Origin: Candidatus Gastranaerophilales bacterium
GTDB taxonomy: Bacteria > Cyanobacteriota > Vampirovibrionia > Gastranaerophilales > Gastranaerophilaceae
Length of the DNA: 40,600 bases
Assembly (NCBI GenBank): GCA_944323595.1
Contig: CALUTF010000014.1
Span: forward strand, 1 to 40,600
Direction: 5' to 3'
The notes below the pieces were generated by a model. The model did no database searches and was not told the origin of the DNA. It saw nothing but the letters and a program-made list of their open reading frames with translations. Made by a program: the position numbers and the translations under genes. How positions within the stretch are numbered: position 1 is the first letter of the stretch; each line of letters starts with the position of its first letter. Shown here piece after piece: positions 20,709-39,942 of this stretch.

Positions 20709-22055
20709 ATGCAGGATTTAGACACATCGAAACTTGACCATCTGAAAGAACAGGTTCGCAGTAAGCTGGATTCAACACAGTTATATGGCTTTAAAGGGAC
20801 AGTATCCAAACTTCTGGGACTGACGGTTGAAGTAAAACTTCCGGGGCTGAAAATTGGCGATCTATGTTTTATAGAAACATACGACGGCAGAAAAAAACCG
20901 GCAGAAGTTGTTGCGTTTAAAGGCGAAGCCGCGCAGCTGCTCTTGCTTTATGACGGAGAGGGAATCGGTCAGGGCAGTCTTGTAACAACTACCGGCAGAC
21001 CAATTATTATACCGGTAGGTGATTTTCTGCTAGGAAGATTGATTAATCCTATGGGAGACCCGATTGACGGAATGCCTCTGGACACTACGGGTGCTCTCTG
21101 GCGTCCGATTGAGGGACCGCCTCCGGGGCCGTTTGAGCGTCCGATTATTACGGAAATATTTTCAACAGGAGTAAGAGCCATTGATTCCTGTATGACAATG
21201 GGCTGCGGGCAGCGTTTGGGATTGTTTGCAGGTTCAGGGGTAGGTAAAAGTACACTTCTCGGTATGATTGCAAGGAATTCGGATGCCGATGTGAACGTTG
21301 TTGCACTAATCGGAGAACGCGGCAGAGAAGTTAAAGAGTTTGTTGAAGATGCGCTCGGGGAAGAGGGTATGAGAAAATCCGTACTTGTATGCTCTACAGG
21401 TGACCAGCCGCCTCTAATCAGACAAAAAGCTTTATTAACGGCAACTGCTGTCTGCGAATATTTCAGGGATCAGGGCAAAAAAGTTTTCCTTATGACTGAC
21501 ACCGTAACACGTTGTGCAATGGCAGGACGTGAAGTAGGACTATCCATCGGGGAACCTCCGACAATGAAAGGTTACCCGCCGTCAATTTTCTCATGGCTGC
21601 AAAAAGTTCTTGAACGTGCAGGCAACAGCCCCAGAGGCTCAATTACAGCCTTATACACCGTACTTATGGAAGGTGATGATATTTCCGATCCGATTGTTGA
21701 TATTGTCCGTGGGATTGTTGACGGGCACATTTTCTTATCAAGAAAAGTTGCAGAGATGAACCATTACCCTGCGATTGATGTTCTCGGAAGTATCTCAAGG
21801 CTTATGTCAGCAATTGCAACACCTGAACACAAAGAAGCCGCAGGTAAAATGAGAAAAATTCTTGCTATGTATCGAGAAAATAAAGACTTGATTGATGTTG
21901 GTATGTATCAGCCTGGTTCTAACCCGAAACTTGATATTGCAATTGAAATGATGCCTCAGGTTAATGCTTTTCTACAGCAAAGAACAACCGATATCGTAAG
22001 TATGGATACGACAATAAGTACCCTTGTAGAAATGATGAGGAATGTAGATATTTAA
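20709..22055 (+). CDS. FliI/YscN-family type III secretion ATPase
   Basis: A 448-residue ATPase of the F1-beta-like family that powers export in flagella and type III secretion. An N-terminal beta-barrel is followed by Walker A GSGVGKST at 175-182 in the context GLFAGSGVGKSTLLGMIAR, typical of FliI/YscN rather than F1-beta or Rho. IGERGREVKEF, the Walker B region VFLMTDTVTR and SPRGSITALYTVLMEGDD follow. No other flagellar or T3SS gene (FlhA/B, FliP/Q/R, FliF, FliG) is in the window, so the gene is an orphan locally. It is convergent with the prepilin gene, only 2 bp between stops and no terminator. Flagellar FliI and non-flagellar SctN cannot be distinguished here. Confidence 0.9.
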   Translation: MQDLDTSKLDHLKEQVRSKLDSTQLYGFKGTVSKLLGLTVEVKLPGLKIGDLCFIETYDGRKKPAEVVAFKGEAAQLLLLYDGEGIGQGSLVTTTGRPIIIPVGDFLLGRLINPMGDPIDGMPLDTTGALWRPIEGPPPGPFERPIITEIFSTGVRAIDSCMTMGCGQRLGLFAGSGVGKSTLLGMIARNSDADVNVVALIGERGREVKEFVEDALGEEGMRKSVLVCSTGDQPPLIRQKALLTATAVCEYFRDQGKKVFLMTDTVTRCAMAGREVGLSIGEPPTMKGYPPSIFSWLQKVLERAGNSPRGSITALYTVLMEGDDISDPIVDIVRGIVDGHIFLSRKVAEMNHYPAIDVLGSISRLMSAIATPEHKEAAGKMRKILAMYRENKDLIDVGMYQPGSNPKLDIAIEMMPQVNAFLQQRTTDIVSMDTTISTLVEMMRNVDI

Positions 22056-22057
22056 AG

Positions 22058-22813
22058 CTATCTTGGCAAATTTTTAAAATAATTTTTGTCTGTCAATGCT
22101 TTTTCTGTACATCCTATACCGTTTTCCCTATGATTGGAGTCCGGCGAGCAATATGTATCCAAGTTTGTATATAACGTTGACTCGGCACCCATCGGTAAAA
22201 CTTTGCCGTCAGACATAATTTGAAATGTAAACATATCATGTCCCCACGCGTTTGGCAAACGTTTATATCCATTAACATCAACGGTAACAAACAAATGTCC
22301 CGGCAAATTTTGAGGATTAGGATTTTCTATCATATATAAAGTACCGTCATATACCATAAACTGCCCGTCATCCAGAGTATCCGTGGCGACATTACGACTT
22401 TTGCTATAAGTTTTATAATTTGCTATAACATATTGCATACCTTCGCCCTCAATGTCTTCGCTTTCTTGTCCGACGCAACCGGTGTTACCGCAATAAAGCA
22501 CGGTATTAAAATATTCAGAGTAAGGTCTGGCAAAAGACCATACAGGGAAATCACCGGCTTTGACCCGTTCTCCTCTATCAACACTCATTCTCTCCAGAGC
22601 TTGCTGCAACGTAGAATAACTCTTCTTCAGTTGTGCATGTAGAACAATTGCCTGATAATTTTGAATAACAGCCGGAATGGTTAAAGCGGCAACAACTCCG
22701 ATTATGCCAAGAGTTAATAAAACTTCCGCAAGTGTAAATCCGGAAAAGCCTTGATTGGGCATTAAATTACACGCCCCCCCCCCGAAATTAGCATTATATC
22801 TATGTTTTAGCAT
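22058..22813 (-). CDS. Type IV prepilin-like protein with G10 tract in the leader
   Basis: A 251-residue pilin/pseudopilin. The class III signal is G|FTLAEVLLTLGIIGVVAALT with cleavage after GFSG (Gly at residue 25). Glu+5 is present. The C-terminal domain contains a Cys pair (CGNTGC) and DGKVLPMG. The ATG at 22813 has a good SD (AGGGGAAG). Between it and an internal ATG (22762, MPNQGFSG) lies a run of ten Gs (22774-22783 as C on the plus strand), coding Phe-Gly-Gly-Gly-Ala. With G9 or G11 the frame stops at TAA before the signal; in G9 the stop overlaps the internal ATG (TAATG). It may be phase-variable. PilT (2106) would retract such pili. Confidence 0.9.
   Translation of the reverse strand: MLKHRYNANFGGGACNLMPNQGFSGFTLAEVLLTLGIIGVVAALTIPAVIQNYQAIVLHAQLKKSYSTLQQALERMSVDRGERVKAGDFPVWSFARPYSEYFNTVLYCGNTGCVGQESEDIEGEGMQYVIANYKTYSKSRNVATDTLDDGQFMVYDGTLYMIENPNPQNLPGHLFVTVDVNGYKRLPNAWGHDMFTFQIMSDGKVLPMGAESTLYTNLDTYCSPDSNHRENGIGCTEKALTDKNYFKNLPR
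22774..22783 (-). repeat. Poly-G tract (10 nt), slippage-prone
   Basis: A run of ten C on the plus strand (G on the coding strand), exceptional in this AT-rich region, inside the prepilin leader. Its length controls the reading frame. Confidence 0.8.
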
Positions 22814-22858
22814 ATTCTTCCCCTATCTTTTTGTCATAACTGAATCATTATAACAAAT

Positions 22859-23209
22859 TTAGCGTAAAAGTGCAATATTATCCATTTTATGACAATTTAT
22901 ATTTGAAATATAACGATTATACTGTTCTTCACGGGAATAACCCAGCATTATTCCGAGGATAAAATCTTCTTCCTTTGTAAGTTTTGATAAATTTTCACTT
23001 GAGAAATTTTCGAGAATTTTTATACACGGCTCTGCCCCGAAAAATACATTTATTTTTTCATCGCTCAACGCGTAAATTTTATAAAGCAGCCCGTGCTTTT
23101 TCAACAAAGTTTCTATTTCATTTCGAAACTTAGATGAACAGGTATACAGAACCATATCGCGCATCCCCTTTTGATATTCATAAATTAACTGATTAAAAAT
23201 CTCCAACAT
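22859..23209 (-). CDS. DUF2023 family protein
   Basis: A 116-residue cytoplasmic protein. IYEYQKGMRDMVLYT, EKINVFFG and LTKEEDFILGIMLGYSREEQYNRY fit my memory of DUF2023 (PF09633), a small family of unknown function, in some genomes next to flavodoxin. No flavodoxin is near. It lies 45 bp upstream of the prepilin gene on the same strand and may be co-transcribed. It is divergent from zupT. No clear SD; the 23210-23250 stretch has a CTCC-rich complement (GGAGAG on the minus strand) about 10 nt upstream that may serve. Confidence 0.7.
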   Translation of the reverse strand: MLEIFNQLIYEYQKGMRDMVLYTCSSKFRNEIETLLKKHGLLYKIYALSDEKINVFFGAEPCIKILENFSSENLSKLTKEEDFILGIMLGYSREEQYNRYISNINCHKMDNIALLR

Positions 23210-25967: not shown

Positions 25968-26174
25968 ATGAAATTATCACCGAAGGAAACAGAAATTATA
26001 ACTTTGGTTGCAAAGGGTTTTGAAGACAAAGAAATCGGCACAAAGCTTAAAATTTCAGGGCGGACAGTACAGACTCATCTTACACGAATAATGCTGAAGC
26101 TTAACGCCAGAAACCGAACCGCTGCAGCCATCAGCTACATTAAAAACAATCCGGAATATTTAAAACAACTTTAA
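25968..26174 (+). CDS. Stand-alone LuxR/GerE-type HTH protein
   Basis: A 68-residue protein that is almost entirely a LuxR-family HTH: LSPKETEIITLVAKGFEDKEIGTKL, then SGRTVQTHLTRIMLKLNARNRTAA. No receiver or ligand domain is present. It is a likely transcription regulator, perhaps of the phage block in which it lies. AAGGAATTAAG gives the SD. It is 18 bp before the endolysin gene on the same strand, with an upstream -10-like motif shared inside the block. Confidence 0.85.
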   Translation: MKLSPKETEIITLVAKGFEDKEIGTKLKISGRTVQTHLTRIMLKLNARNRTAAAISYIKNNPEYLKQL

Positions 26175-26192
26175 ATCAGGAGAGAAACAAAT

Positions 26193-26693
26193 ATGAAAAG
26201 AATTATACTGCACTGGACAGCCGGCAGTTATATGCCCAATGCCCACGATTTAGAGTGCTATCATTTTTTGATAGATTCAAAAGGTTGTATTCACAGTGGG
26301 AAATTTTCCCCTGAAAATAACCTTGTGTGCAAAAAAGGATGTTATGCAGCCCACACAGGGGGAGGAAACACAGGCTCAATAGGCGTAAGTTTTTGCGGAA
26401 TGTTCGGTTTTAAAAACAAAAATGAAACCGGTAAATATCCGATTACCCCAAAACAATTTGAAGCCGGTATGAAATTATGTGCAGAATTATGCATAAAATA
26501 CAATCTTGAAATAACCCCGCAAACAGTAATGACACATTATGAATTCGGCAAAATAAATCCGCACACAACAAGCGCCGGCAAAATTGATATAACTTACATC
26601 CCGCCTTATCCGTGGGTAGACAAAAATGATGCCGGCAGTTTTATCCGCACAAAAATCAAGTGGTACAGAAATCAAATACAGGAGAAAAAATAA
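26193..26693 (+). CDS. N-acetylmuramoyl-L-alanine amidase (phage endolysin)
   Basis: A 166-residue Amidase_2-type (T7 lysozyme-like) peptidoglycan hydrolase that cuts the MurNAc-L-Ala bond. Predicted zinc ligands are H7 (ILHWTAG), H115 (THYEFG) and D132, with catalytic K130, in the block THYEFG...SAGKIDIT. AAHTGG (52-57) matches the substrate loop. There is no signal peptide, so export would need a holin, as for a phage endolysin. TCAGGAGAG is the SD. The stop TAA overlaps the next start as TAATG. Confidence 0.9.
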   Translation: MKRIILHWTAGSYMPNAHDLECYHFLIDSKGCIHSGKFSPENNLVCKKGCYAAHTGGGNTGSIGVSFCGMFGFKNKNETGKYPITPKQFEAGMKLCAELCIKYNLEITPQTVMTHYEFGKINPHTTSAGKIDITYIPPYPWVDKNDAGSFIRTKIKWYRNQIQEKK

Positions 26694-28207
26694 TGGAAGT
26701 TGCATACTACAATCTGTCAGGCGGAATAAATCAGGCACTGACAAAAACCGAATTAGGGCTGGATACAAAGAAAATATACTGGAGTGATTCCGAAAATGTT
26801 GAAATTCTCCAGAATCGCGGGATTTGTAAACAAAACGGCAACACCTGCTTTCTGGAACTTCCTGTCAGCGAAGAAATCACAGGACTGCATGAACTTGAAG
26901 CGCACAATGAACGTATTTTAATAATTACAACAATCTCCGGTAAAATTTATGTAAATAAAAACGGCACAACAACCCTTACGCTGCTTGAGAAAACATTAGA
27001 GGGCAAAAAACCTGTATTCACAAATTTTCTTGACGGAATTTTTGTGTCATCGGAAGCTGACTGCCCGTTTTATATAAAAAATGATTTTACAATAGTTGAA
27101 ACAAATGCTAAAAATATTAACAACCTCACATTAACCTCAACTATTATAACTGTATATAAAGGAAGAGTCTGGATTGCGGATGATTCTGTAATCTATTATT
27201 CCGCATTAGGCTCATATACAGACTTTACAACAGAAAACGATGCCGGATATATAAAAGATTTTCACACCGATACTGCTGATATTATTGCCCTGAAACCTTA
27301 CAAAGATTATCTTGCAATATACAAGAAAAACAGTGTCTATCTTTTGACAGGTACAAGTCCGGAAGATTTTGCAATAACTCCGTTTGCAGATAAAGGAGCC
27401 CTGTCAGCCAAATCAATTGTAAACGTTGAAAACAAACAGTATTTTCTGAGCAACGGTATCTTTGCGCTTGAACAGGTCGGAGAACTTAACCAGATACAAC
27501 TGGGCTCTGAAATTTCTCTAAAAATTAAACCTGAATTTTCTAAATTTGACAAATCACGGATGAATGATACAATTGCTCTTCATTATGAAAGCAAAAGCCA
27601 GATATGGTTTTTCTTTCCGTATTATCAGGAAACAAATTTCAAGACAATCTGGATAAACGATTATGTTAACAAGTGCTGGTACAAGCGTGTCGTTCCTCAA
27701 AATATAAAAACAGCCGCAATCTATAACAATTATGTAATCACAGCCGATGACTCCGGAAAAATTTACAGAGAAGACTTTGGCTCAACATTCAACGGAGAGG
27801 CAATAAAATTTATGTGGAAGTCACCTTTCCTTGCCATAAGTTCTGCACATCACAGAAAAACCATAGACGAATTTTATTTTCTGCTTGATGAATCCTATGA
27901 CAACGATTTTGACTTTTCTGTCTATAAAGATTACGACAGCGAATATTCCGATGACACAGAAAGAATATACTCCATACACTATGAACACCTTATGTGGAGC
28001 AACGGAACAGAAACCCAAAACCTTATGGATTACTGGCCGGAAGATGAAGACACCGTTCCGGTCTGGGCAATAGGACGCAATACACTGGAAAAAGCCGAAA
28101 TATCCGAATCAAATTACACAATACAATTATGTGTCACAGGTACAGAAGTTCAGCAGGCGTGCGGAATTATAGGTCTGCAATTCAGAGAAATTTACAATGA
28201 CGATTAA
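26693..28207 (+). CDS. Phage tail/DNA-stabilisation protein (P22 gp10-like), putative
   Basis: A 504-residue soluble protein. The N-terminus YYNLSGGINQALTKTELG, with DSENVEILQNRGICKQNG, resembles the start of podophage tail hub/stabilisation proteins, which begin by binding the portal-adaptor assembly. The middle is repeat-like beta-sheet (IYVNKNG, VYKGRVWIADDSVIYYS, YKDYLAIYKKNSVYLLTG, YVITADDSGKIYRED), consistent with a beta-propeller. The start overlaps the amidase stop (TAATG) with AGGAGA upstream. It precedes the major capsid gene. Assignment is from pattern memory; it could be another tail protein. Confidence 0.6.
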   Translation: MEVAYYNLSGGINQALTKTELGLDTKKIYWSDSENVEILQNRGICKQNGNTCFLELPVSEEITGLHELEAHNERILIITTISGKIYVNKNGTTTLTLLEKTLEGKKPVFTNFLDGIFVSSEADCPFYIKNDFTIVETNAKNINNLTLTSTIITVYKGRVWIADDSVIYYSALGSYTDFTTENDAGYIKDFHTDTADIIALKPYKDYLAIYKKNSVYLLTGTSPEDFAITPFADKGALSAKSIVNVENKQYFLSNGIFALEQVGELNQIQLGSEISLKIKPEFSKFDKSRMNDTIALHYESKSQIWFFFPYYQETNFKTIWINDYVNKCWYKRVVPQNIKTAAIYNNYVITADDSGKIYREDFGSTFNGEAIKFMWKSPFLAISSAHHRKTIDEFYFLLDESYDNDFDFSVYKDYDSEYSDDTERIYSIHYEHLMWSNGTETQNLMDYWPEDEDTVPVWAIGRNTLEKAEISESNYTIQLCVTGTEVQQACGIIGLQFREIYNDD

Positions 28208-28273
28208 ATAAAAATACTGCTCATCTAAATATAAAAACGTTAGTTACTACAAAAAAAGAAAGGGAAAAATTAA

Positions 28274-29200
28274 ATGTCAAACAACTACGCTGCATTTATT
28301 CCGGAAATCTGGAGCCAAAAATTAAACAACATGCTTGAAAAAGACTGTGTAATGCTCCAGTGCGTAAACAGAAATTACGAAGGTGATATCAAAAATCAGG
28401 GTGACAAAGTAAAAATTATCACTCCTGCAAAAGTAAACGTATCAACCTTAAGTGATGCTGCATTAACTTACAAAGAACTTGAACCGTCTTCAATGGAACT
28501 TGTAATTGACCAGAAAAAATTCTTTGCATTCAAAATTAATGACGTTGCTGCAGTTCAGGCTAATACAGATATTATGGAAGCACATCTTGCAAATGCTAAA
28601 AAAGCAATTGAAGAAGTTCAAGACTCTTATCTGCTGGGGCAACACGCATACGTTGACGCAGCCAACATAATCGGGAGTGATGAAACACCTGTTACGCTTG
28701 ACAAAACCACTATTTATGAACAATTCGTAAAACTTGCATTAGCATTGAAAAATTCTGACGCCGTAACAGGTACCAAACGTCCATGGGTCGTTATCAACCC
28801 GACAATTGAATCTTATCTGTTACAAAGCACAGAATTTATAGGTGCACACAACGTTGCGGACGAAACTTTACGAGAAGGTGCAATCGGCAGAATTGCCGGT
28901 ATGGATGTACTGGTAAGCACAAACCTTACCGAAGTTGACGGCGTATACTATGTTCTTGCAGGTACTAACGAAGCAATTACATTTGCCTCCCAGCTTGCAA
29001 AAGTAGAAAGCCTCAGAGATAAAGACAGCTTCTCTGACTTAATCAGAGGGTTATATTTATACGGTGCTAAAACAGTTCAACCTAAAGCACTTGCAAAACT
29101 TGTTATCTCTGCACCAGATACAACTCCATCAGTACCGGAAATTGATTCAGATTCTGACTCAGATACTGATACCGATGCTGATTCTGACAACGATGCCTAA
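28274..29200 (+). CDS. Major capsid protein, P22 coat/HK97-fold type
   Basis: A 308-residue capsid subunit. NNYAAFIPEIWSQKLNNMLE, CVNRNYEGDIKNQGDKVKI and FAFKINDVAAVQAN are typical of P22-coat-like proteins. IAGMDVLVSTNL and YYVLAGTNEAITFASQL cover the core. The last ~20 residues are an Asp-Ser-Thr-rich acidic tail (DSDSDSDTDTDADSDNDA) preceded by TTPSVPE; this tail is unusual. GAAAGGG lies 9 nt upstream. It is followed by an attenuator-like hairpin. Confidence 0.85.
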   Translation: MSNNYAAFIPEIWSQKLNNMLEKDCVMLQCVNRNYEGDIKNQGDKVKIITPAKVNVSTLSDAALTYKELEPSSMELVIDQKKFFAFKINDVAAVQANTDIMEAHLANAKKAIEEVQDSYLLGQHAYVDAANIIGSDETPVTLDKTTIYEQFVKLALALKNSDAVTGTKRPWVVINPTIESYLLQSTEFIGAHNVADETLREGAIGRIAGMDVLVSTNLTEVDGVYYVLAGTNEAITFASQLAKVESLRDKDSFSDLIRGLYLYGAKTVQPKALAKLVISAPDTTPSVPEIDSDSDSDTDTDADSDNDA

Positions 29201-29221
29201 AATAAATACTTCCTTACCCCT

Positions 29222-29257
29222 AAATCCTCTGCAGGTATAAAATCTGCGGAGGATTTT
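29222..29257 (+). terminator. Hairpin behind the major capsid gene
   Basis: AAATCCTCTGCAG pairs with CTGCGGAGGATTT (one G-U), followed by TATAAAA. The weak T-run suggests an attenuator that raises capsid transcript over downstream genes. Confidence 0.65.
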
Positions 29258-29278
29258 ATAAAACAAGAAAGGATATAA

Positions 29279-29551
29279 ATGTTTTCAAAATTTAAAGAAA
29301 CGGTGAAAGAATTGGCGTACACAGCAGTTCTAAAAGCAGAAGAGGCTCTGGGAAGCAAAACAGGTCAGATGAAAAAAGAAATGGCACTTAATTATATAAT
29401 TAAAAATCTTCCGCTGCCCTCTTTCATTAAACCGCTCATTGTAAAACTGCTATCCGGTTTTATAGATGATGCGATAGAATTTGCCGTCGACTATATGAAT
29501 AAACACAATTTTGAAGAACCGAAAACAGGAGAAATAAAAGATGAACTATAA
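29279..29551 (+). CDS. Small phage protein, holin-LLH C-terminus-like
   Basis: A 90-residue protein. AVLKAEEALGSKTGQMKKEMA recalls the C-terminal part of LLH-type holins (superfamily 6), which have an A..AE..lG..tG..K pattern. However, the hydrophobic central stretch (LPLPSFIKPLIVKLLSGFI) is only marginal as a membrane segment. It may be a holin-related or capsid-accessory protein. AAAGGAT is the SD. Its end overlaps the next gene by 11 bases. Confidence 0.6.
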   Translation: MFSKFKETVKELAYTAVLKAEEALGSKTGQMKKEMALNYIIKNLPLPSFIKPLIVKLLSGFIDDAIEFAVDYMNKHNFEEPKTGEIKDEL

Positions 29552-30143
29552 CGAACAACAAAAAATTTCATCAGCTGCCGAAAACCGAAACCCGTTATTG
29601 GAACAGGAGATTAAAGCATACTTAACACAGAAATTAGGCAATCAGAATGCTTCAGTCGCACAACAACAGGAAATGTTGAGAAAGATGTTACTAAATAATG
29701 AACAAGGGAATTCTTTGTTGAAAAATTATGTAAATAATGTGTGTGATGCAATTATGAAAAATAATGCAAAAAAAACAACAGTTCCTGCCGGCGACCTGAA
29801 AAAATTCTTTGATATGGACGGACGAAATGAAGTTATGGCATATCTCCAAAATTCCAATATGGATTTTGATGATGATGAAATGCAAAAAATATCAGCACTT
29901 GTAGAAACACTGGAAAATTCTGCAATTGACAGATATTTAAAACAAAAAGCCCGCGAAAAAACAATGCAGGAAGAGAATGAATCCGCAAAACAAAGACTAA
30001 AATCAAATGCGCAAAATTCAGGCTATACATCTTCCGGCAATAAAGTATTCACCCGCGGGGAAATCGGCAAGATGAGCAGTGAAGAATTTGCCAAAAATGA
30101 AAAATTAATCATGGAGCAGCTGCGACAGGGATTAATACAATAG
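29541..30143 (+). CDS. Scaffold-like phage protein
   Basis: A 200-residue, highly charged, helical protein rich in Gln, Asn, Glu and Lys, with coiled-coil character (EQQKISSAAENRN, QQQEMLRKML, KQKAREKTMQEEN). The C-terminal FTRGEIGKMSSEEFAKNEKLI resembles the tail of phage capsid scaffolding proteins (fTr.eI..Ms.eEf.kn). Scaffolds normally precede the capsid gene; here the gene follows it. The start overlaps the previous gene by 11 bases, with GGAG about 14 nt upstream. Function is inferred. Confidence 0.65.
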   Translation: MNYNEQQKISSAAENRNPLLEQEIKAYLTQKLGNQNASVAQQQEMLRKMLLNNEQGNSLLKNYVNNVCDAIMKNNAKKTTVPAGDLKKFFDMDGRNEVMAYLQNSNMDFDDDEMQKISALVETLENSAIDRYLKQKAREKTMQEENESAKQRLKSNAQNSGYTSSGNKVFTRGEIGKMSSEEFAKNEKLIMEQLRQGLIQ

Positions 30144-30153
30144 CAAATTCGAT

Positions 30154-30187
30154 AAATCGACGGGATTAACAATCCCGCCGATTTTTT
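30154..30187 (+). terminator. Terminator behind the scaffold-like gene
   Basis: AAATCG-a-CGGGATT pairs with AATCCCG-c-CGATTT, followed by TTTT. Confidence 0.8.
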
Positions 30188-30202
30188 AAAGGAGAACTAC
30201 AC

Positions 30203-30841
30203 ATGAACTATTTTGAAATAATAAACAAATGCCTTGTAGAGCTTGGCTACAAACAGGTAAGCGCCTTTGCAGAACTTACAAAAAACGATCATAAAAAACT
30301 AAAAAATATAATTAATGTCATAAACAGCACAATATGCCGTTACGACAACTGGTATTTTATGATGAGGAAAACAAATCTTACACTGAATGCAGGGCAAACA
30401 GAGCTGGAAAACACCATCAACGGCAGAATTATAAAACTGGTTATTGACAATGCGGAATACAATTACCTGATAAACTACGAAGATTACGCCTCCGGCACCA
30501 TACCTGAAAAAAGCTTCACAGTAAACGGAAACAATCTCGTATTTCCAAAATTTGACAGCGATAAAAATATAACAGTAACTTATTACACAAAAAATACAGC
30601 AATATCCTCAGACGGAACAGAAAAATCCATGCTGGAAACAGAAACAGATATTCCCATGATACCGGAGCCGTATGTGGAACCACTGCTGGTTTACGGAAGC
30701 TGTATGAGACTAAAATCAAATCCGCAGCACGTCAAATTCAGTTACTGGTATGGCATGTACAAAGATACTCTTGCTGAAATGAAATCTCAGATATCAGTTT
30801 CCGCAAAAGAAATGCCATACATCAAAATGCACCGCAGCTAG
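30203..30841 (+). CDS. Head-tail adaptor (P22 gp4-like), putative
   Basis: A 212-residue protein. NYFEIINKCLVELGY and IINVINSTICRYDNWYFMMRKTNLTLNAG, followed by LLVYGSCMRLKSNPQHVKFSYW, match the layout of podophage connector/accessory proteins of the gp4 class: an N-terminal helical part, a beta region, and a C-terminal Y..W..m helix. It would sit below the portal and connect to the gp10-like protein. AAAGGAG is the SD. A terminator lies just upstream, so expression may need read-through. Confidence 0.6.
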   Translation: MNYFEIINKCLVELGYKQVSAFAELTKNDHKKLKNIINVINSTICRYDNWYFMMRKTNLTLNAGQTELENTINGRIIKLVIDNAEYNYLINYEDYASGTIPEKSFTVNGNNLVFPKFDSDKNITVTYYTKNTAISSDGTEKSMLETETDIPMIPEPYVEPLLVYGSCMRLKSNPQHVKFSYWYGMYKDTLAEMKSQISVSAKEMPYIKMHRS

Positions 30842-30843
30842 TA

Positions 30844-30906
30844 ATTTCGGGCAAAAAAAACAGGAAGTTTTCATTCCCCCCTGTTAAGATTTACACTAGC
30901 CGAAAT
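30844..30906. repeat. Nested inverted repeats upstream of terS
   Basis: ATTTCGG (30844-30850) pairs with CCGAAAT (30900-30906); inside it AACAGG (30859-30864) pairs with CCTGTT (30880-30885). It lies in the 134-bp gap just before the small terminase gene. It could be a terminator remnant or a packaging (pac) site. Confidence 0.45.
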
Positions 30907-30975
30907 ATAAATAGCATGTTTATTATAACCCTTTTTTCAAAAAAACGCAAATTTTGATAAGAAATGTAAAAAATA

Positions 30976-31419
30976 ATGTCACAAAAAATGAAACAATTAA
31001 CCAAACAACAAAAGCTTTTTGTAACCGAATACATTAAAACACTTGACGGAGAAGATGCTGCGAAAAAAGCCGGTTACAGGTCTAAAGATATAAAAGAAAC
31101 AGCAGACAGACTACTTGCGGACCTCCATATTGTAAAAGAAATCAAAAACCGGATAAACAGCCAGATTAGCTCTCTCCGCGTACAAAAAGGCTACGTAATC
31201 CAAAAACTTTTACAAATAGCGGAATTTTCTCTGACGGAAGAAGAAATTACGGATAAAGACGGAAACTATACAGGCAAAAAGAAACTCCGCGACACTGGAG
31301 CAGGATTAAAAGCACTTGAAAGCCTCTGCAAATATCTCGGTATAAATTCTAACGAAACAGAAGAATATAAACCCGCTAAAATAATCACAATCTCAAACCT
31401 TGACGACGAAAAGATTTGA
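30976..31419 (+). CDS. Phage terminase small subunit
   Basis: A 147-residue Terminase_2-type DNA-recognition subunit. LTKQQKLFVTEYIKTLDGEDAAKKAGYRS is the classic N-terminal HTH, followed by VKEIKNRINSQISSLRVQKGYVIQKLLQIAEF (oligomerisation/helical core). It would select the packaging site and stimulate the large subunit encoded at 34601. The SD is weak (AAGAAATG). It starts a tightly packed segment running to the portal gene. Confidence 0.85.
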   Translation: MSQKMKQLTKQQKLFVTEYIKTLDGEDAAKKAGYRSKDIKETADRLLADLHIVKEIKNRINSQISSLRVQKGYVIQKLLQIAEFSLTEEEITDKDGNYTGKKKLRDTGAGLKALESLCKYLGINSNETEEYKPAKIITISNLDDEKI

Positions 31420-31443
31420 TAAATAAAAAGAAAGGAATGAAAA

Positions 31444-31803
31444 ATGAAAAACAAAAAAGATCTGGAAGATATCCTGATAAACAAAACAAGCATGGACGAT
31501 TTAATAAAAATGAAAATAGAAAAAGAATTCATGCAGGAAATGTTAAACGCAGGACACAAAAGACATAAAAAAATAATAACCGATATAAAAGACGTCCCAA
31601 AAGGCGCTATTTTCGGCAAAAACGCCGTGTTCAAAATATTTAACAGGCAGACTAAAACAGAAACAACCATAAACGGTATTCAGGCAGAGGGCATGCTCGG
31701 TCTGCAAGATTCTGTCAGAACTAAACTTTTGAATGGAGAAACCACAACATTTGCAACAGAAGATGCTTATGTAAAGTTTGAGAAATTATGTTTAAATTCT
31801 TAG
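31444..31803 (+). CDS. Small phage-block protein, unknown
   Basis: A 119-residue basic protein I do not recognise. The N-terminus is helical and charged (KKDLEDILINKTSMDDLIKM). The C-terminal half (DVPKGAIFGKNAVFKIFN, then INGIQAEGMLG) looks like a small beta domain. GAAAGGAAUG-like SD. Its end overlaps the GNAT gene start by 16 bases. A head-morphogenesis accessory role is possible by position only. Confidence 0.7.
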   Translation: MKNKKDLEDILINKTSMDDLIKMKIEKEFMQEMLNAGHKRHKKIITDIKDVPKGAIFGKNAVFKIFNRQTKTETTINGIQAEGMLGLQDSVRTKLLNGETTTFATEDAYVKFEKLCLNS

Positions 31804-32330
31804 CTGGTACCATTAATACCCCGGACGGGGCGAAAATTACTTCACCTCTCATTTTGCATTTGCCCCGTCTTTTCTTTCTATACAAAAGATACGAAAGATT
31901 TTTGCACGATGATTACACTGAAAACATGTCTTTTAAGCAATTTATCAAATTTGTTACAGACAGTAACTTCTTCTGGCTGATACAGGAAGCCTCAACAGGA
32001 ATACCTGCCGGTTTTGTATATCTTGATAATATTACTGGCAGCGAAAACCATCTGCACAGTGCGGAAATAACCACCTGCTTTGAACAAAAATTCTGGGGAG
32101 AAAAAACTTACATCTGTGCAATGGAATTTTTTGATTATGTATTCAAAACATTCGGATTTTACAAAATAAAAGCACAAATATACCCGCAAAATTTCAGAGT
32201 AAAAACTCTTCTGAAAAAATGCGGATTTAAACTTGAATGTATCCTGAAAAATGAAACCCTGCGGAACGGACAGCTTCAGGATATTGAACTATATGCACTT
32301 ATGAACAAAAAGAAATGCGAGGAACAATGA
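31788..32330 (+). CDS. GNAT-family acetyltransferase inside the phage operon
   Basis: A 180-residue protein with the RimJ/RimL-type GNAT layout: FVTDSNFFWLIQEASTGIPAGFVYLDN, EITTCFEQKFWGEKTYICAMEFFDYVFKTFG, and YKIKAQIYPQNFRVKTLLKKCGFK, the acetyl-CoA-binding N.r...ll.k.GF pattern. It would acetylate a small molecule or protein N-terminus or lysine. It overlaps the upstream gene by 16 bases and the portal gene by 4 (ATGA), so it is part of the morphogenesis operon. Its target is unknown; host factor modification or virion-protein modification are options. Confidence 0.8.
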   Translation: MFKFLAGTINTPDGAKITSPLILHLPRLFFLYKRYERFLHDDYTENMSFKQFIKFVTDSNFFWLIQEASTGIPAGFVYLDNITGSENHLHSAEITTCFEQKFWGEKTYICAMEFFDYVFKTFGFYKIKAQIYPQNFRVKTLLKKCGFKLECILKNETLRNGQLQDIELYALMNKKKCEEQ

Positions 32331-34012
32331 AAATTGAAACAGACGACTTAACGGTTCAAATTGATGAAACCGAAGAAAAATTTTTAGCAAACAGCATAAT
32401 AAAAAAATACGATACGTTGGAAAATGAAAGAATGTCACAATTAAGCGACATAAAACTTATCAGAAACTCCATATACAATCAAACAATCCCCAAAATTAAC
32501 GCCTGGGAAAGCCATATTGAACTTCCTGACATTTATGAACTTGCACAGACACTGAAATCTCATCTTGCACAAAACCTTTACTCTCATCCGGATGCAATGT
32601 TCGATGTCACAGGAACAACACCTGAAACTCAGGAATATGCAAATAAACAAAAAGCAATGCTTGTAAATACTTTTGAACAAATGAAATTTGAAGATGAGAT
32701 TGAAAAAATTATCGACAGTGTTGTAGAAACAGGGGAATGTACTCTTTTTGTCGGCTGGAACACAAGAATCAAACAAATAAGACGCCCCCTTACTCTTGAA
32801 GAACAACTCCTGAATTCAGACGGCAAAAATTTTATAGTTGAATCAAAATTAATTTACGACAATGCAAAAATTAAACATATAAAAGCCGAAGATTTCGTCT
32901 TTGAAAAATGCTCAAATGCAGACTGGGATAACTGTGCCAAAATATACAGAACATATTCATCACTGGAAGAAATATTCGGAGACAAATCAAACAACCTGCT
33001 TACGGACTCAAAACTGGAAACATTGAAAGGAGTGATGGCAAAAAATAAAAGAGAAATAACAAAAGCAGTAGAAGAAAACAAACTGGAAATTTTGGAATAC
33101 TGGGGCGATATAGAACTCTCTGACGGCAGAGTATTAAAAAACAAACTGGCAGTTATAGCCGGCCGTCAGGAATTAATAAGATTTGAATCAAACCCGTTTG
33201 TGATAAACCCCTTTGTACATGCCAATATAATAGAAAATCCAACCACAGGAAGAGGCATATCACCGCTTAGAGTTGCTTTAATTTTAAACAATCTGGCATC
33301 GACAATTCTGAACAAACAGATTGATGCGCTGGCGCTTATGATGAATCCGCCATATCTTGCCCCGAAAGGCTGCTTCCGCGGTCAGCAGGATGTCCAGCCA
33401 GGGAAAATTATTGAATACGATGCAGCACTGATGCCGAACCAACCTGTACCTCTGAGCTTTGATAAAGCTATGCAGGGATGGGACTTCCTGAATTACTTTA
33501 AAGCGACAATCGAAAGCGCCACAGGAATTTTCAAAAACATGGCAGGAAATATCCAGACACAGGAAAGAACTGCAACAGAACTTAATTATTCCGCAAACGG
33601 ACAGGAAGCAAGACTTAACCTCATTATAGAATCCATTAACAGAAAAATATTAATTCCTACAATAGAAAAAACAGCCGAAATCATAGCAAACTTTAAACTC
33701 GGTACAGAAACAATTACATTAAATAACCACGGACGGACAGAGTTTATCGACATAGATGATAATATTCGAAATGCAAATTATATCTACCGTTACGGTGACA
33801 GGAAAGCGAATTTTGAACGGAAATCCAAACTGAAAGAATTATTTGAAATAGTAAGCTCTTTTGCACAGGTTGCAACTGTTTCCGAGCGGATAGACTGGAT
33901 AGAGTGCTTCAAATTTGCCCTTGAACAGTATGGCGTCGAAAACTCCGACAATTTTCTTCTTGAAAATCAACAGGCAAATATAAATTCATCAGGTAATAAT
34001 ACAAATGCTTGA
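32327..34012 (+). CDS. Phage portal protein, podovirus type
   Basis: A 561-residue portal, forming the dodecameric head-tail vertex. The start is ATG 32327 (GAGGAA just upstream; ATGA overlap with the GNAT gene). The N-terminal WESHIELPDIYELAQTLKSHL, NPFVINPFVHANIIENPTTGRGISPLRV and ATGIFKNMAGNIQTQERTATEL correspond to regions seen in podophage collar/portal proteins: the wing, then the stem and crown. A Gln/Asn-rich tail ends the protein. The size is suited to a P22/T7-type portal rather than to the Siphoviridae type. Confidence 0.8.
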   Translation: MKIETDDLTVQIDETEEKFLANSIIKKYDTLENERMSQLSDIKLIRNSIYNQTIPKINAWESHIELPDIYELAQTLKSHLAQNLYSHPDAMFDVTGTTPETQEYANKQKAMLVNTFEQMKFEDEIEKIIDSVVETGECTLFVGWNTRIKQIRRPLTLEEQLLNSDGKNFIVESKLIYDNAKIKHIKAEDFVFEKCSNADWDNCAKIYRTYSSLEEIFGDKSNNLLTDSKLETLKGVMAKNKREITKAVEENKLEILEYWGDIELSDGRVLKNKLAVIAGRQELIRFESNPFVINPFVHANIIENPTTGRGISPLRVALILNNLASTILNKQIDALALMMNPPYLAPKGCFRGQQDVQPGKIIEYDAALMPNQPVPLSFDKAMQGWDFLNYFKATIESATGIFKNMAGNIQTQERTATELNYSANGQEARLNLIIESINRKILIPTIEKTAEIIANFKLGTETITLNNHGRTEFIDIDDNIRNANYIYRYGDRKANFERKSKLKELFEIVSSFAQVATVSERIDWIECFKFALEQYGVENSDNFLLENQQANINSSGNNTNA

Positions 34013-34032
34013 TGCCTGTTTCGGACAAAATA

Positions 34033-34044
34033 TGCTAATATAAA
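34033..34044 (+). promoter_or_regulatory. Extended -10 promoter of the membrane protein gene
   Basis: TGCTAATAT (34033-34041) ends 8 nt before the ATG at 34050, which lacks an SD. GCTAATATAAA is shared with 25912-25922. Confidence 0.5.
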
Positions 34045-34049
34045 CCGGT

Positions 34050-34523
34050 ATGAGATGGCAGAGCAAAATATTGTTTTTAATGTTATTTTTTCCGATGATG
34101 CTTGTCGGAATATTGTTCTCCTATCTCAGCATGAATGAATTAGCCGAAAACGAAAAGGCAAAAACTGAATCTTCTAAACCCAAAATAGAAAAAGAAGAAT
34201 ACGATCCAACTTTGTGGCCGGAAGAAAGAAAACGGCTAAAAGAAAAACGGCTTCGGGAATTACAGGAACAAGCCGCAGCGGAACAAGCCAATACAGAACA
34301 GGAAGAATTTCAAAATGACGGTTATTACAATGAAAATGAAATAACAGAAGAAGAATACACCACTGAAAATACAGGCGATTATGAGGATGAATTTTCCGGG
34401 ACAGAAGAAAATATTGACGATTCTAACGAAGAACAAACCTATGAAGAACCGCAAACTTATGAAACTCCGGCTGAATATTCTCCGCCGCAGCTTGAAGAAA
34501 TTCCTCCGGAAGAATTCCAGTAA
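34050..34523 (+). CDS. Membrane-anchored acidic protein, moron-like
   Basis: A 157-residue protein with one N-terminal hydrophobic segment (ILFLMLFFPMMLVGILFSYL) and a long charged tail: a Lys/Glu helix (EERKRLKEKRLRELQEQ) followed by a very acidic, Glu/Tyr/Pro-rich region ending PPEEFQ. It has no SD, its own extended -10 promoter directly upstream and a strong terminator directly downstream. This is the pattern of a phage moron expressed independently of the morphogenesis genes. It may be a surface/lysogenic-conversion or spanin-like protein; function unknown. Confidence 0.75.
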   Translation: MRWQSKILFLMLFFPMMLVGILFSYLSMNELAENEKAKTESSKPKIEKEEYDPTLWPEERKRLKEKRLRELQEQAAAEQANTEQEEFQNDGYYNENEITEEEYTTENTGDYEDEFSGTEENIDDSNEEQTYEEPQTYETPAEYSPPQLEEIPPEEFQ

Positions 34524-34545
34524 AAATATTTCAGTAAAAAATTAT

Positions 34546-34579
34546 AACCACCTTTTATTAAATAAAAGGTGGTTATTTT
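34546..34579 (+). terminator. Terminator between the moron-like gene and terL
   Basis: AACCACCTTTTATT and its exact complement AATAAAAGGTGGTT form a 14-bp palindrome, followed by ATTTT. Confidence 0.85.
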
Positions 34580-34600
34580 ATGTACAAAAGGATAATAACA

Positions 34601-35890
34601 ATGAAATATAAACTATTAAAAGCACAGCGTGAATTTTTGGAAATTCCGCATGATTATACACTTGATGTTGCCGTATATCAGGGCGGCTACGGTTCAGGCA
34701 AAACCTTTGCAGGTTCGCTGCTCGGCATTTTATTATGTATGAAATTTCCCGGGATAAGAGGACTTGTAGGCGCCCAAACCTATACTCTTGTGAGAGATAC
34801 AACTCTTCAAACCTATCTTGAACATCTTGATAATATGAATTTTCAGGAGGGAATAGATTACGAATGGTCATCAACATTACAGAAACTAACTTTCCGCAAT
34901 ACCTCAGAAGTCCTGTTCAGACACTTTGATGAGCCCAATAAGTTAAAATCTCTCAACCTCGGATTTGTTGAAATAGAAGAGATGTCCGATATCCCGTATG
35001 AAACATTTAAAATGCTTCTTGGCAGAATGCGTCAGCAGCCTAAAAGCACCTGGAAAAATTTCACATACAGAATATTCGGACACACAAATCCCGAAACACA
35101 GAAAGGATGGATTTATAAAACTTTCGCCCAAAATCCGGCACCTAATTACCGGCTGATTACAGCTCCTACAACCCAGAACATTTACCTGCCTGAAGGCTTC
35201 TGCGATGAACTAAAAAAAATCTACGATGAACAATACTATAATATATTTGTCCTTGCAAAAAACGGAGAATATAACAGCGGTCTGGTAATAAAAGATTTTA
35301 CGGATGAAAATATACGGGAAATAAACTATCAGGATGACATAGATTTACATATAAGCTGTGACTTTAATGTTGATCCGATGTGCTGGGTTCTGGCACATAA
35401 AACTGATGACAAAGTTTTCTATTTTGATGAAATAGTAATGGAAAATACAACAACAGCCAAAGCCTGTGAGGAATTTTGCCGCCGCTACCCGAACCACAAA
35501 GGAAACATCATAATAAACGGTGATGCCTCTGGCGACAATCGGAGCTGCACAAGTGAATATACAAATTACGTAATTATAAAAAAGAAACTTCAAGAACACG
35601 GTTATGATGCAGACATAAGAATAAAAGCGTTCAACCCGCCCATAAAAAACCGCATAGCCGCATTCAATGCAAAAATAAGGAACGCTGACGGAACAATCTG
35701 TCTTTATGTAGATAAAAAATGCGAAAAACTTCTCTATAATATATATAATCTTAAATACAAAGAGGGATCTTCGCGCATAGATATACCGGCATACACGCAG
35801 ATTAAACAGAATAAAGAACTTAAATTTCTGTCGCATCCGATAGATGCAGCATCTTATCTTGTTGATTTTTACTGGCCGATAACATTATAG
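34601..35890 (+). CDS. Phage terminase large subunit
   Basis: A 429-residue DNA-packaging motor and nuclease. The start is ATG 34601 with AAGGA 10 nt upstream; an earlier in-frame ATG (34580) lies in the terminator. Walker A is GGYGSGKT at 28-35, Walker B is GFVEIEEMSD, and the coupling motif GHTNPE follows. The RNase H-like nuclease has Asp residues in SCDFNVDPMCW, INGDASGDNRS and HPIDAASYLVDFYW. Resembles the Terminase_3/PBSX group. It is separated from the small subunit by 3.2 kb, which is unusual. Confidence 0.92.
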   Translation: MKYKLLKAQREFLEIPHDYTLDVAVYQGGYGSGKTFAGSLLGILLCMKFPGIRGLVGAQTYTLVRDTTLQTYLEHLDNMNFQEGIDYEWSSTLQKLTFRNTSEVLFRHFDEPNKLKSLNLGFVEIEEMSDIPYETFKMLLGRMRQQPKSTWKNFTYRIFGHTNPETQKGWIYKTFAQNPAPNYRLITAPTTQNIYLPEGFCDELKKIYDEQYYNIFVLAKNGEYNSGLVIKDFTDENIREINYQDDIDLHISCDFNVDPMCWVLAHKTDDKVFYFDEIVMENTTTAKACEEFCRRYPNHKGNIIINGDASGDNRSCTSEYTNYVIIKKKLQEHGYDADIRIKAFNPPIKNRIAAFNAKIRNADGTICLYVDKKCEKLLYNIYNLKYKEGSSRIDIPAYTQIKQNKELKFLSHPIDAASYLVDFYWPITL

Positions 35891-35903
35891 AAACGGAGAA
35901 AAT

Positions 35904-36143
35904 ATGGAAAACATAATGCATTATTCACCAATTCTCATTGCGATAATGATATTTTTAATCCAGCAGAGAATTGTTGTGACACCTGAACAACTTGAAAAAA
36001 AACACAGAGAAATCATTGAAGACGTAGAAGAAAAGTTTGTCACAATACATAGTTTTAAAGATTTGAAAGAACAATTTTCGGAAATGAAAGATAAAATTGA
36101 TAAAATTTATGACTGCATAATGACCAACAATATAATAAATTAA
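35904..36143 (+). CDS. Small membrane/coiled-coil protein closing the phage block
   Basis: A 79-residue protein. A hydrophobic N-terminal segment (SPILIAIMIFLIQQRIVV) is followed by a charged coiled coil (EKKHREIIEDVEEKF, FKDLKEQFSEMKDKIDKIYD). The layout resembles XhlA/Rz-type lysis accessories or holin-like proteins, though one short membrane segment does not prove it. ACGGAG is the SD. It lies 13 bp after terL and is the last gene before the host-like region. Confidence 0.7.
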   Translation: MENIMHYSPILIAIMIFLIQQRIVVTPEQLEKKHREIIEDVEEKFVTIHSFKDLKEQFSEMKDKIDKIYDCIMTNNIIN

Positions 36144-36261
36144 TTGTAAACAAATATTACAAAAAATTTGAATATATTTAAAGTTTTAACTGAAAAATGC
36201 CGATAACATGAACAAAAGGACTACATGTTACTAAGATAATTGAAAGGCAAAAGTTACACAA

Positions 36262-37917
36262 ATGGGATTGGCAGCATCACAAGCAAGATTTTTAGCCATA
36301 ACAGCGAGAAAAACCCAGTGCGAATTGCAATCAACGCAAATCGCACAGGATAAACTGTCAATCAGTAACGAATTAACAGAAGCTACTGAAGATTATCAAA
36401 GTGCATTAAATGCTACAAAATTAATCTGGGATTCAGACGGTACAGGTGAAAACACTTACAACGTATCTTATAACCTTTTAATGACACCGTCAGCAGCAAA
36501 TATGTATGACCCGTATCTGGTAACCGATTCATCAGGCAAAATTGCACTTAACACCAAAATGGCTCAAGCCGCACAGCAAGCAGGTATTGACCCTAAAGGT
36601 GGCACTGTACAAAGTGTTGAAGGGCGTAACAAGTTTATATGGGCATTACGTGATGCTGGTGTTATTCCAGGCTCAACATCTGCAAGTATTGCTGGAATAG
36701 AAACGGCACCAATAACAGATAATTATTCAACGGCAGCTGGAGTCGGCGGTATTCCGCTTGATAAAACAACAGCTTATGCAGTATCAAATGCAACTCTGGC
36801 AAATTATTTATCAGATAATGAATATAATTTAAATATTTCAGATTGTATAACTGCAACAGGTCAAACCTGGGGCGGTAAAAAGGGTGGATTTAGCGTTGCG
36901 ATAAACGGTACTCCTATGTCAGATGAAGGAACGGCCAAAGATTTGACAATTGGAGATTTGTTAAACAATGAATATACAATTGTATGTTCAGGCGGTGATA
37001 ACGAAGGAGTTGCACCTGGAACAACGAATTTTAATGAATTTATGAATGCCGTTTTCGGCTGTGATGCAGATGGCTCCATAAAGAATGTTGCAGATAACAA
37101 CTCACTTTTTGGTAGAATTGCACAAACTTTAACAGCACTATTAGGAGTAGATGACGCAAGCTTAGAAGCTTTAGATTATGCATACAAAAAGATTATGCAA
37201 AATTATACAAATTCTAACAGAGCGATGAGTGCAGGTTCACCAGGCTCAACTTCTTCTTCCTATGATGCAGCTAATTCAAAAGCAAATGAATACAATGCAG
37301 TTACATACACTTCTGACAGTAATCTTAATAAAAAAGAAAATGCTCATGTTGCAGTAAATATCTCAAATGTTGTAAGTTCATTCTTAACTTATTTCGCTCA
37401 ACAAATAACAAGTAGTGATTATACTGTAGCAAGATTGGATGAAAACTGCTACTATGTAACAGATGATATGACTTATATGTATGAACTTGCGAATACAAAT
37501 GCAGTAACAGAAAAAGATCTGTTAATCACAGACTTCTATAATTCATTATATAACAACATTTGTGCAAACGGATGGACAGGTGCATACGGAGATTACTTAG
37601 AAGACGACCAATATTTCCAACATGCATTGAAAAACGGTCAATTATTCATATCAGTACTTGCAACAGACGGATATTATTATCAGGAAGTATACAACGATAA
37701 CGGATATCTGGTTGAAATCACTGATGAAGACGCAATTGCACAGGCAGAACTTGAATTTGAAATCATCAAGAGCAAGCTTAATGCTAAAGAAGAAAAACTT
37801 GATCTTGAAATGAAAAATGTTGATATGGAAATATCATCACTCACAACTGAATATGATACAGTTAAAAACCTTATCAGCAAAAATATCGAAAAAGTATTCA
37901 CAATGTTCCAATCATAA
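36262..37917 (+). CDS. Large protein with helical flagellin-like ends
   Basis: A 551-residue protein beginning MGLAASQARFLAITARKTQCE, followed by a coiled-coil segment (QIAQDKLSISNELTEATEDYQ). It ends in another long helix (EIIKSKLNAKEEKLDLEMKN, then VKNLISKNIEKVFTMFQS). The middle is Thr/Ser/Asn/Gly-rich. Terminal helical hairpins around a variable core are the build of flagellin, hook and needle-filament proteins. I recall this N-terminus in several Gastranaerophilales proteins of unknown function. There is no signal peptide, so type III-like export is conceivable (the ATPase at 20709). The SD is weak (AAAGG, 14 nt away). It has its own terminator. Confidence 0.85.
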   Translation: MGLAASQARFLAITARKTQCELQSTQIAQDKLSISNELTEATEDYQSALNATKLIWDSDGTGENTYNVSYNLLMTPSAANMYDPYLVTDSSGKIALNTKMAQAAQQAGIDPKGGTVQSVEGRNKFIWALRDAGVIPGSTSASIAGIETAPITDNYSTAAGVGGIPLDKTTAYAVSNATLANYLSDNEYNLNISDCITATGQTWGGKKGGFSVAINGTPMSDEGTAKDLTIGDLLNNEYTIVCSGGDNEGVAPGTTNFNEFMNAVFGCDADGSIKNVADNNSLFGRIAQTLTALLGVDDASLEALDYAYKKIMQNYTNSNRAMSAGSPGSTSSSYDAANSKANEYNAVTYTSDSNLNKKENAHVAVNISNVVSSFLTYFAQQITSSDYTVARLDENCYYVTDDMTYMYELANTNAVTEKDLLITDFYNSLYNNICANGWTGAYGDYLEDDQYFQHALKNGQLFISVLATDGYYYQEVYNDNGYLVEITDEDAIAQAELEFEIIKSKLNAKEEKLDLEMKNVDMEISSLTTEYDTVKNLISKNIEKVFTMFQS

Positions 37918-37947
37918 GATAAATAATATTACACATTACACATAACT

Positions 37948-37978
37948 GCAGGTTGTCAAATTTGACTAACCTGCCTTT
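37948..37978 (+). terminator. Terminator of the 551-aa gene
   Basis: GCAGGTT pairs with AACCTGC, with an inner TCAA/TTGA, followed by CTTTTAA, 30 bases after the stop. The spmA -35 (TTGACT) lies within it. Confidence 0.85.
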
Positions 37979-37989
37979 TAATGTTTAAA
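37962..37989 (+). promoter_or_regulatory. spmA promoter, leaderless type
   Basis: TTGACT (37962-37967), 16 nt, then TTTAAA (37984-37989), 7 nt before the ATG; no SD. The spacer includes the terminator arm of the upstream gene. Confidence 0.5.
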
Positions 37990-37996
37990 TAGCGTT

Positions 37997-38599
37997 ATGA
38001 ATTATATTTTTTACGGGTTGATTGTATTTTCGATAATAATAGGAGCCACAAACGGCAGACTACAGGAAGTTGTAAACTCAATACTTCTTGGTGCTGAATT
38101 ATCCGTAAAAGTTGCATTTTCACTGATAGGAATCATGGCATTCTGGCTGGGTATAATGAAAATTGCAGAAAAAAGCGGGCTTGTAGAATTTATCTCAAAA
38201 CTGATAAAACCTGTTACAAAAAAACTTTTTAATGAAATACCTGAAAATTCGCCAGCAATCGGGGATATTGCAATGAGCGTTTCAGCAAACGCTCTCGGGC
38301 TTACAAATGCCGCAACGCCCATCGGCATAAAAGCAATGGAAGAATTACAAAAACATAACAAAGATAAATCAACAGCCTCCAATGCTATGTGTATGTTTCT
38401 GGCAATGAATACTGCAGGATTTCAATTAATACCGGCAACCGTAATTGCGGTTTTAATAGGAATAGGCTATAAAAATCCGACAGAAATTATTGCACCTACA
38501 CTTTTAGTAACAACTATTGCCTTTATATCTGCAATTATACTGGCTAAAGTATTCGAAAAATTCTGGACACCTCAAAAAGAAAACGGAGGTGACGAATAA
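37997..38599 (+). CDS. spmA: Spore maturation protein A family (SpmA)
   Basis: A 200-residue membrane protein of the nucleoside-recognition (Gate) family, with about five membrane segments. GLTNAATPIGIKAMEEL and CMFLAMNTAGFQLIPATVIA are diagnostic for SpmA. In Bacillus, SpmA and SpmB are needed for spore-core dehydration; in non-sporulators they are thought to be a transport pair with unknown substrate. No SD; a promoter lies right against the ATG. The stop overlaps the spmB start (TAATG). Confidence 0.93.
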   Translation: MNYIFYGLIVFSIIIGATNGRLQEVVNSILLGAELSVKVAFSLIGIMAFWLGIMKIAEKSGLVEFISKLIKPVTKKLFNEIPENSPAIGDIAMSVSANALGLTNAATPIGIKAMEELQKHNKDKSTASNAMCMFLAMNTAGFQLIPATVIAVLIGIGYKNPTEIIAPTLLVTTIAFISAIILAKVFEKFWTPQKENGGDE

Positions 38600-39132: not shown

Positions 39133-39466
39133 CAGCATCGGTCCAGCTTTGGGTAAACTCTTTATATTCATTAGGAACAACTGTTTTAATTAAAACAGCA
39201 TAATTTATATCTATAAAATTAATCTTAGGCACTCTTTCGACAACAAATTCATGAGCACCGCAGTTGTGGCAGAATTTTTCCTGCGGCACAATCTGCCCAT
39301 TTTTAATCATAGACTGCAGCTTAACGCCGCAGCAGGAACAACGTGTCAGATACCATTGATTTTCGATTAATTCACCGCAATCAGGGCAATATGTTACATC
39401 GGCATCAACAGGCACCTTTTCATGACAACAATCTTTACTTCCGAATAAAAACTCCATTAACATCAT
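39086..39466 (-). CDS. Zinc-ribbon protein
   Basis: A 126-residue cytosolic protein with three probable Cys pairs: CPDCGEL (about 27-33), CSCCG (43-47) and CHNCG (65-69), plus CCH near the N-terminus, suggesting two zinc ribbons. The C-terminal ~50 residues lack motifs. TTGACT, 16 nt, TAAATA, 6 nt then ATG supports the start at 39466 and a leaderless mRNA. It overlaps the end of spmB by 47 bases, tail to tail. The last ~20 residues come from that overlap, so the true end is certain only if the frame is really used. Confidence 0.7.
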   Translation of the reverse strand: MMLMEFLFGSKDCCHEKVPVDADVTYCPDCGELIENQWYLTRCSCCGVKLQSMIKNGQIVPQEKFCHNCGAHEFVVERVPKINFIDINYAVLIKTVVPNEYKEFTQSWTDAARTCSDTPKLLRQFR

Positions 39467-39505
39467 AATTTTTATTTAATGATGAAAATTAAAAAGTCAA
39501 CAAAA

Positions 39506-39895: not shown

Positions 39896-39942
39896 AATGT
39901 AATAATAAACATTTGCACCACAAATTACATTAGACAAAATAA

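Follow-up and report, generated by a model that had tools for sequence, protein, structure and literature searches.

A poly-G tract in the leader of a type IV prepilin gene is a probable phase-variation switch in Candidatus Gastranaerophilales

Phase variation by poly-G tracts is well known in Neisseria, Campylobacter and Helicobacter. In the gonococcal pilE/pilS system, a large pilin repertoire is maintained of which few members are expressed, with silent pilS cassettes being copied into pilE by recombination. The prepilin family of the Gastranaerophilales described here resembles this system in having a large pilin repertoire with apparently few expressed members. Unlike the pilS cassettes (named in PMC10327513), its copies are complete genes, each with its own Shine-Dalgarno (SD) sequence, ATG and tract. 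The pilC1 and pilC2 genes of Neisseria gonorrhoeae undergo translational poly-G phase variation by a G9-G15 tract (PMC5320596) and encode PilC, a pilus-associated protein and likely tip adhesin that is present in two copies (PMC5320596, PMC10327513). As in pilC1/pilC2, the tract analyzed by us is located near the 5' end of a pilus-related gene, and two of three tract lengths break the frame (PMC5320596). However, PilC is not a prepilin, whereas in Gastranaerophilales the tract lies within the prepilin leaders themselves, in up to ~64 paralogues per genome. In Campylobacter jejuni, a single genome harbors ~29 polyG/C loci (PMC4965091), and tract lengths are kept mainly at G9 and G10, with an insertion bias at G8 and a deletion bias at G11 or more, in the absence of functional mismatch repair (PMC8355987). 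The tracts in Gastranaerophilales likewise cluster at G10-G11 and include glycosyltransferase genes, but our genome encodes MutS1 and MutL, and the dominant tract-bearing class is a prepilin family, most copies of which are one step from ON. We found no report of phase variation in Gastranaerophilales in the open-access literature searched, an absence that leaves novelty unproven; one flagellin survey mentions both Melainabacteria and phase variation.

We analyzed a 40,600-nt stretch of contig CALUTF010000014.1 from Candidatus Gastranaerophilales bacterium, hereafter the window. Reading of the sequence confirmed the original prediction of a run of ten Gs on the minus strand, located between an SD-supported ATG and a prepilin signal (Table 1). 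This G10 tract is the sole run of eight or more Gs in the window, where shuffled sequences predict 0.11 matches and 3 overlapping ones are observed; a 5' coding homopolymeric tract beyond chance expectation is a hallmark of contingency loci. With ten Gs, the pilin ORF is open from ATG 22813 to TAA 22058 (minus strand) and encodes a 251-amino acid product, MLKHRYNANF-GGG-ACNLMPNQGFSG|FTLAEVLLTLGIIGVVAALTIP, the ATG being preceded at a distance of 5 nt by AGGGGA. In the G9 state the frame closes with ...ATT TAA, the stop overlapping an internal ATG (TAATG), and in the G11 state it closes with ...GTG TAA, earlier than in the G9 state, so that the arithmetic of the original prediction is right. 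The frame is thus open with 10 or 13 Gs and broken with 9, 11 or 12, and a one-unit change terminates it soon 3' of the tract, again as in contingency loci. The tract is separated by 11 nt from the internal ATG and by 35 nt from the prepilin motif. A leader of the pattern MLK.RY.A.F is common to our pilin, to a paralogue on contig C43 and to several pilins of the congener G002.

Table 1. Features of the window pilin gene and genes with G9-G12 tracts in the same genome
Feature	Position or locus	Strand	Basis
Shine-Dalgarno-like AGGGG before first ATG	22820..22824	-	sequence; anti-SD duplex -6.4 kcal/mol
Upstream ATG of pilin ORF	22811..22813	-	sequence; leader shared with paralogue and congener pilins
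Pre-tract leader MLKHRYNANF, 30 nt; tract begins on codon boundary	22784..22813	-	translation
G10 tract, Gly-Gly-Gly plus first base of Ala; proposed switch	22774..22783	-	sequence, frame reading
TAA stop of G11 state	22767..22769	-	sequence
TAA stop of G9 state, overlaps internal ATG	22762..22764	-	sequence
Internal in-frame ATG (MPNQGFSG|FTLAE), candidate site of reinitiation or of a backup start	22760..22762	-	sequence; absent in 124 relatives
Prepilin cleavage motif G|FTLAE	22724..22741	-	PF07963 E 3.8e-4; TIGR02532; homologue conservation
Mature pilin-like protein, long N-terminal helix and beta-rich C-terminal domain	22058..22738	-	AlphaFold2 model; full-length conservation in relatives
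Prepilins with tract	window pilin G10; C35 G10; C43 G12		
Large secreted surface proteins, >970 aa, tract just 5' of signal peptide (n=5)	C3 G10; C6 G9 twice; C9 G12; C16 G11		
Glycosyltransferase-type genes with tract (n=3)	C1 G12; C10 G11 twice		
SDR enzyme with tract	C2 G10		
DHHW/AlgX-like protein with tract	C18 G12		

The gene product has the properties of a type IV prepilin. It contains a G|FxxxE motif followed by a hydrophobic stretch, with residues F26 to V31 being invariant across 40 homologues, and is matched by TIGR02532 above the cut-off of this model and by PF07963 (N-terminal methylation motif) just below the curated Pfam cut-off. An AlphaFold2 model (mean pLDDT 83) features a 53-residue helix (residues 28-80) followed by a beta-rich domain, the long N-terminal helix and C-terminal globular domain known from type IV pilins. 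A profile built from the 40 homologues matches solved pilins (Geopilin, PilA chains) over the helix only, and a Foldseek search with the whole model returned no match at E 0.001 or better; we therefore claim no named pilin subfamily. A prepilin peptidase (PF01478 above cut-off, C23:9150-9527) is encoded in the genome, and our pilin has 22 matches there. The tract-less prepilins that we read in this genome have ordinary in-frame starts and contain no G-run.

In the window, the pilin gene is flanked by fliI (20709-22055, plus strand) on one side and on the other by a DUF2023 gene (22859-23209, minus strand), followed by a ZIP transporter gene. In the congener G001 and in G009, which belongs to another genus, the ZIP gene directly follows fliI, and the pilin-DUF2023 block (22058-23209) is missing. 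In G002, a poly-G pilin leader is found on the opposite side of fliI, and is ~51% identical to the N terminus of our pilin. From their arrangement, the tract-pilins look like variable cargo around conserved genes. Further along the window, positions 25968-40600 may represent a prophage or other element: the AT skew is strongly positive from ~26 kb, and the first genes include LuxR-type regulator-like and amidase-like ORFs.

We next consider poly-G tracts across the entire 2.05 Mb genome, which contains 13 runs of G9-G12, compared with 0.9 expected under a first-order model built on the window, a ~14-fold excess, and 11 runs of ten or more Gs, compared with 0.17 expected. All 13 tracts fall in coding sequence (Table 1); a lone G8 run on C26, located within an intact ORF, was left out of the count. 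One of the five large surface proteins contains Chlam_PMP repeats. The frame is open in four of the 13 genes (the window pilin and those on C3, C2 and C1) and broken in the other nine, close to the one third expected for randomly cycling frames. In two glycosyltransferase-type genes on C10 (2987-2997 and 5690-5700, L067), one of which has no Pfam match, the G11 tract is located near the 3' end, so that a length change would exchange the C terminus and not turn the gene off. Tracts of another kind, not 5' coding, are present in the congeners G001 (L244, L247, L249) and G003 (L229, L235), where several runs of nine or more Gs belong to short non-coding repeats, gggggaggttaggtGGGGGGGGGcaaacattatgtttgc being one example. 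As these and further runs of G001 and G003 are non-coding or lie in no clear ORF, not every G9+ run is a switch. In G020, many such runs are found ~40-270 bases from a contig end (contigs C33, C36, C39, C41, C44 and C85), as if the assembly breaks at G-tracts or at shared leaders.

Poly-G prepilin leaders were found in at least 119 stretches in a scan of 84,980 species for eight or more Gs followed by a prepilin motif within 30 nt, a pattern that yields low counts and leaves our own pilin, with its 35-nt spacing, uncounted. Among the matches listed, all but one (a Polaromonas record) are named as, or group with, Gastranaerophilales/Melainabacteria, and single Gastranaerophilales genomes contain up to ~64 such leaders. 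In a class-wide sample of 289 genomes, a stricter G9 pattern occurs in the family of our pilin and, in a single case, in a second family of the same order, while the sampled genomes from other orders lack it. About eleven tract-pilins of the genome G132 (L299, L305-L308, L311, L316, L318) lack an ATG closer than 60 nt to the tract and have in common an upstream segment that contains a small palindrome (for example CACAATTATTGTG); these represent a second leader type. At four loci of the same assembly, the best start is located 84-85 nt upstream.

Comparison of related loci revealed that tract length varies while the flanks do not, as in contingency loci. Among all tract contexts collected, 10 of the 18 distinct pairs sharing at least 56 of 65 flanking bases differ in tract length (19 pairs before one duplicate of the same locus was removed); these comparisons rest on consensus sequences of draft metagenome assemblies. 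The clearest case concerns a surface-protein tract in our genome (C6:4045, G9, broken) and its counterpart in G003 (C21, G11, open), whose 65-nt flanks are identical and whose genes differ 3' of the tract at 39 of 300 bases. Two loci in the genome G025 likewise have identical flanks and carry G12 and G10, respectively, and the DHHW/AlgX-like orthologues are G12 and broken in our genome, G11 and open in G001 and G003. The C43 pilin is broken both in our genome (G12) and in G002 (G11). Its proteins nevertheless are 86% identical, with a dN of 0.077, a dS of 0.354 and a dN/dS of 0.22, indicating that this pilin has been under selection even though it is OFF in both assemblies. Of 102 relatives whose start is clear, as called by a simple SD score, 95 retain a downstream ORF of 170 or more amino acids. 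Intact, selected frames are thus found behind broken tracts, a further property of contingency loci. In the genus of our pilin, tracts of G9 to G13 occur and all frames are represented. For the window pilin itself, no ortholog with another tract length was found, its nearest relatives being ~52% identical, and no other strains were found in viral contigs.

These findings together suggest that the G10 tract of the window pilin is probably a slipped-strand contingency switch and that the surface repertoire is phase-variable, as judged from sequence comparison. The original prediction had recognized the layout of slipped-strand phase variation from the window, and this reading gains support from the genome- and order-wide occurrence of tracts, from length differences between identical flanks and from the presence of open and broken frames over selected ORFs. 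Slipped-strand mispairing with translational ON/OFF control explains the placement of the tracts, the mixture of frames, the length changes and the conserved ORFs. The tract would gain or lose one G during replication. At G10, a ribosome starting at the SD-supported ATG would translate three glycines and continue into the prepilin signal, the state (ON) captured in our assembly; at G9 or G11, translation would halt no more than 10-20 nt past the tract, leaving the pilin OFF, save for possible leakage. We infer that tract length changes reversibly within one population, that the pilin protein level would track tract length, and that the product is probably assembled into a pilus. Our pilin would then be one of ~13 poly-G-controlled genes, nearly all of them for surface structures, and a member of a prepilin repertoire likewise controlled across the Gastranaerophilaceae. 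Loss of mismatch repair is ruled out as a cause of tract instability by the presence of MutS1 and MutL in our genome and in nearly all relatives, and the presence of both proteins means that extreme slippage rates are not guaranteed.

Most copies in Gastranaerophilales look to be one G off the open frame, as far as can be read from the assemblies, and the repertoire looks off by default. Where SD and ATG are clear, only 18 of 102 relatives are in frame, below one third (binomial P 0.0005, shared ancestry overstating independence). Leaders with an open length of 11 are mostly found at 10, and those with an open length of 10 mostly at 11 (43/9 versus 7/21, Fisher P 6e-7); the copies share ancestry, so that independence is overstated here as well, and independent registers are few. 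In G025, 27 of 35 tract-pilins are G10, 26 of which are broken, and seven are G11, six of which are open. Exact C-flanked counts amount to ~215 G10 and 11 G11 in the genus g7, of which G132 alone contributes 62 G10 and 2 G11; G272 has 36 G10 and lacks G11. A bias as in C. jejuni that holds tracts near G10 would leave leaders with an open length of 11 mostly OFF. The near-invariant length in g7 argues against a switch, in that it needs a strong mutational mode or selection.

The main rival to a genetic switch holds that the tract is stable and that slippage on the G-run by RNA polymerase or the ribosome yields some in-frame product whatever the DNA length, which would amount to programmed, non-genetic low-level expression. 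The uniform lengths in G132 and G272 fit this explanation, as does the finding that G132 has 35 G10 copies with a clear start, all of them broken by one base, with a stop 5-8 nt 3' of the tract. In the same genome, however, the rare G11 copy whose start is clear is exactly in frame, the offset varies between genomes, with G11 copies elsewhere requiring one G fewer, and the genus of our pilin spans G9 to G13 with all frames seen. The same tracts moreover are borne by glycosyltransferase, SDR and surface-protein genes. We consider expression-level slippage unlikely overall, though possible in the genus g7; programmed ribosomal frameshifting as a general explanation is disfavored by the differing offset and the in-frame G11 copy.

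Alternatively, translation could begin at the internal ATG, with the G-run being untranslated or serving in ribosome binding only, and its length would then be no switch. Initiation there would give a prepilin leader of ordinary short length, MPNQGFSG|FTLAE, and pairing of the G-run with the anti-SD is feasible (-10.9 kcal/mol), although the run ends 11 nt from this ATG. An in-frame ATG between the tract and the prepilin motif is missing from all 124 relatives, and the C43 paralogue, which has the same leader, has just 13 nt between its tract and the F codon and no in-frame start. The SD of the upstream ATG is well placed, and the leader that follows is common to paralogues. An internal start is thus improbable, slightly more so than expression-level slippage, and constitutive expression from it is disfavored by the relatives lacking such an ATG. 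The reinitiation at MPNQGFSG envisaged in the original prediction for the G9 state is possible, as TAATG would set a terminating ribosome on the internal ATG, but it would be specific to this gene. The switch in our pilin may consequently be leaky, the internal ATG leaving the gene partly ON in every state. That the tract is neutral or an assembly artifact without functional meaning, as error-prone homopolymers in draft metagenome assemblies could suggest, is very improbable given that homologous genes carry the tract at the same position at hundreds of independent loci, across dozens of assemblies, and given the excess of tracts in our genome and purifying selection behind broken frames (C43 pilin).

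Returning to slipped-strand switching, we tentatively propose that the Gastranaerophilaceae may maintain an OFF-by-default repertoire of dozens of complete prepilin genes with poly-G leaders one G off the open frame, in which rare slippage would select the few displayed pilins, with the window pilin caught ON. Annotation pipelines will label most tract-pilins pseudogenes or misplace their starts. If the proposal is true, it would represent an antigenic-variation-like system in a non-photosynthetic gut relative of cyanobacteria that operates without recombination or invertible DNA. If poly-G control of large pilin families holds, Gastranaerophilales, common uncultured gut relatives of cyanobacteria, would invest heavily in stochastic surface variation, which would provide a testable hypothesis on how they meet phages, host immunity or particle surfaces.
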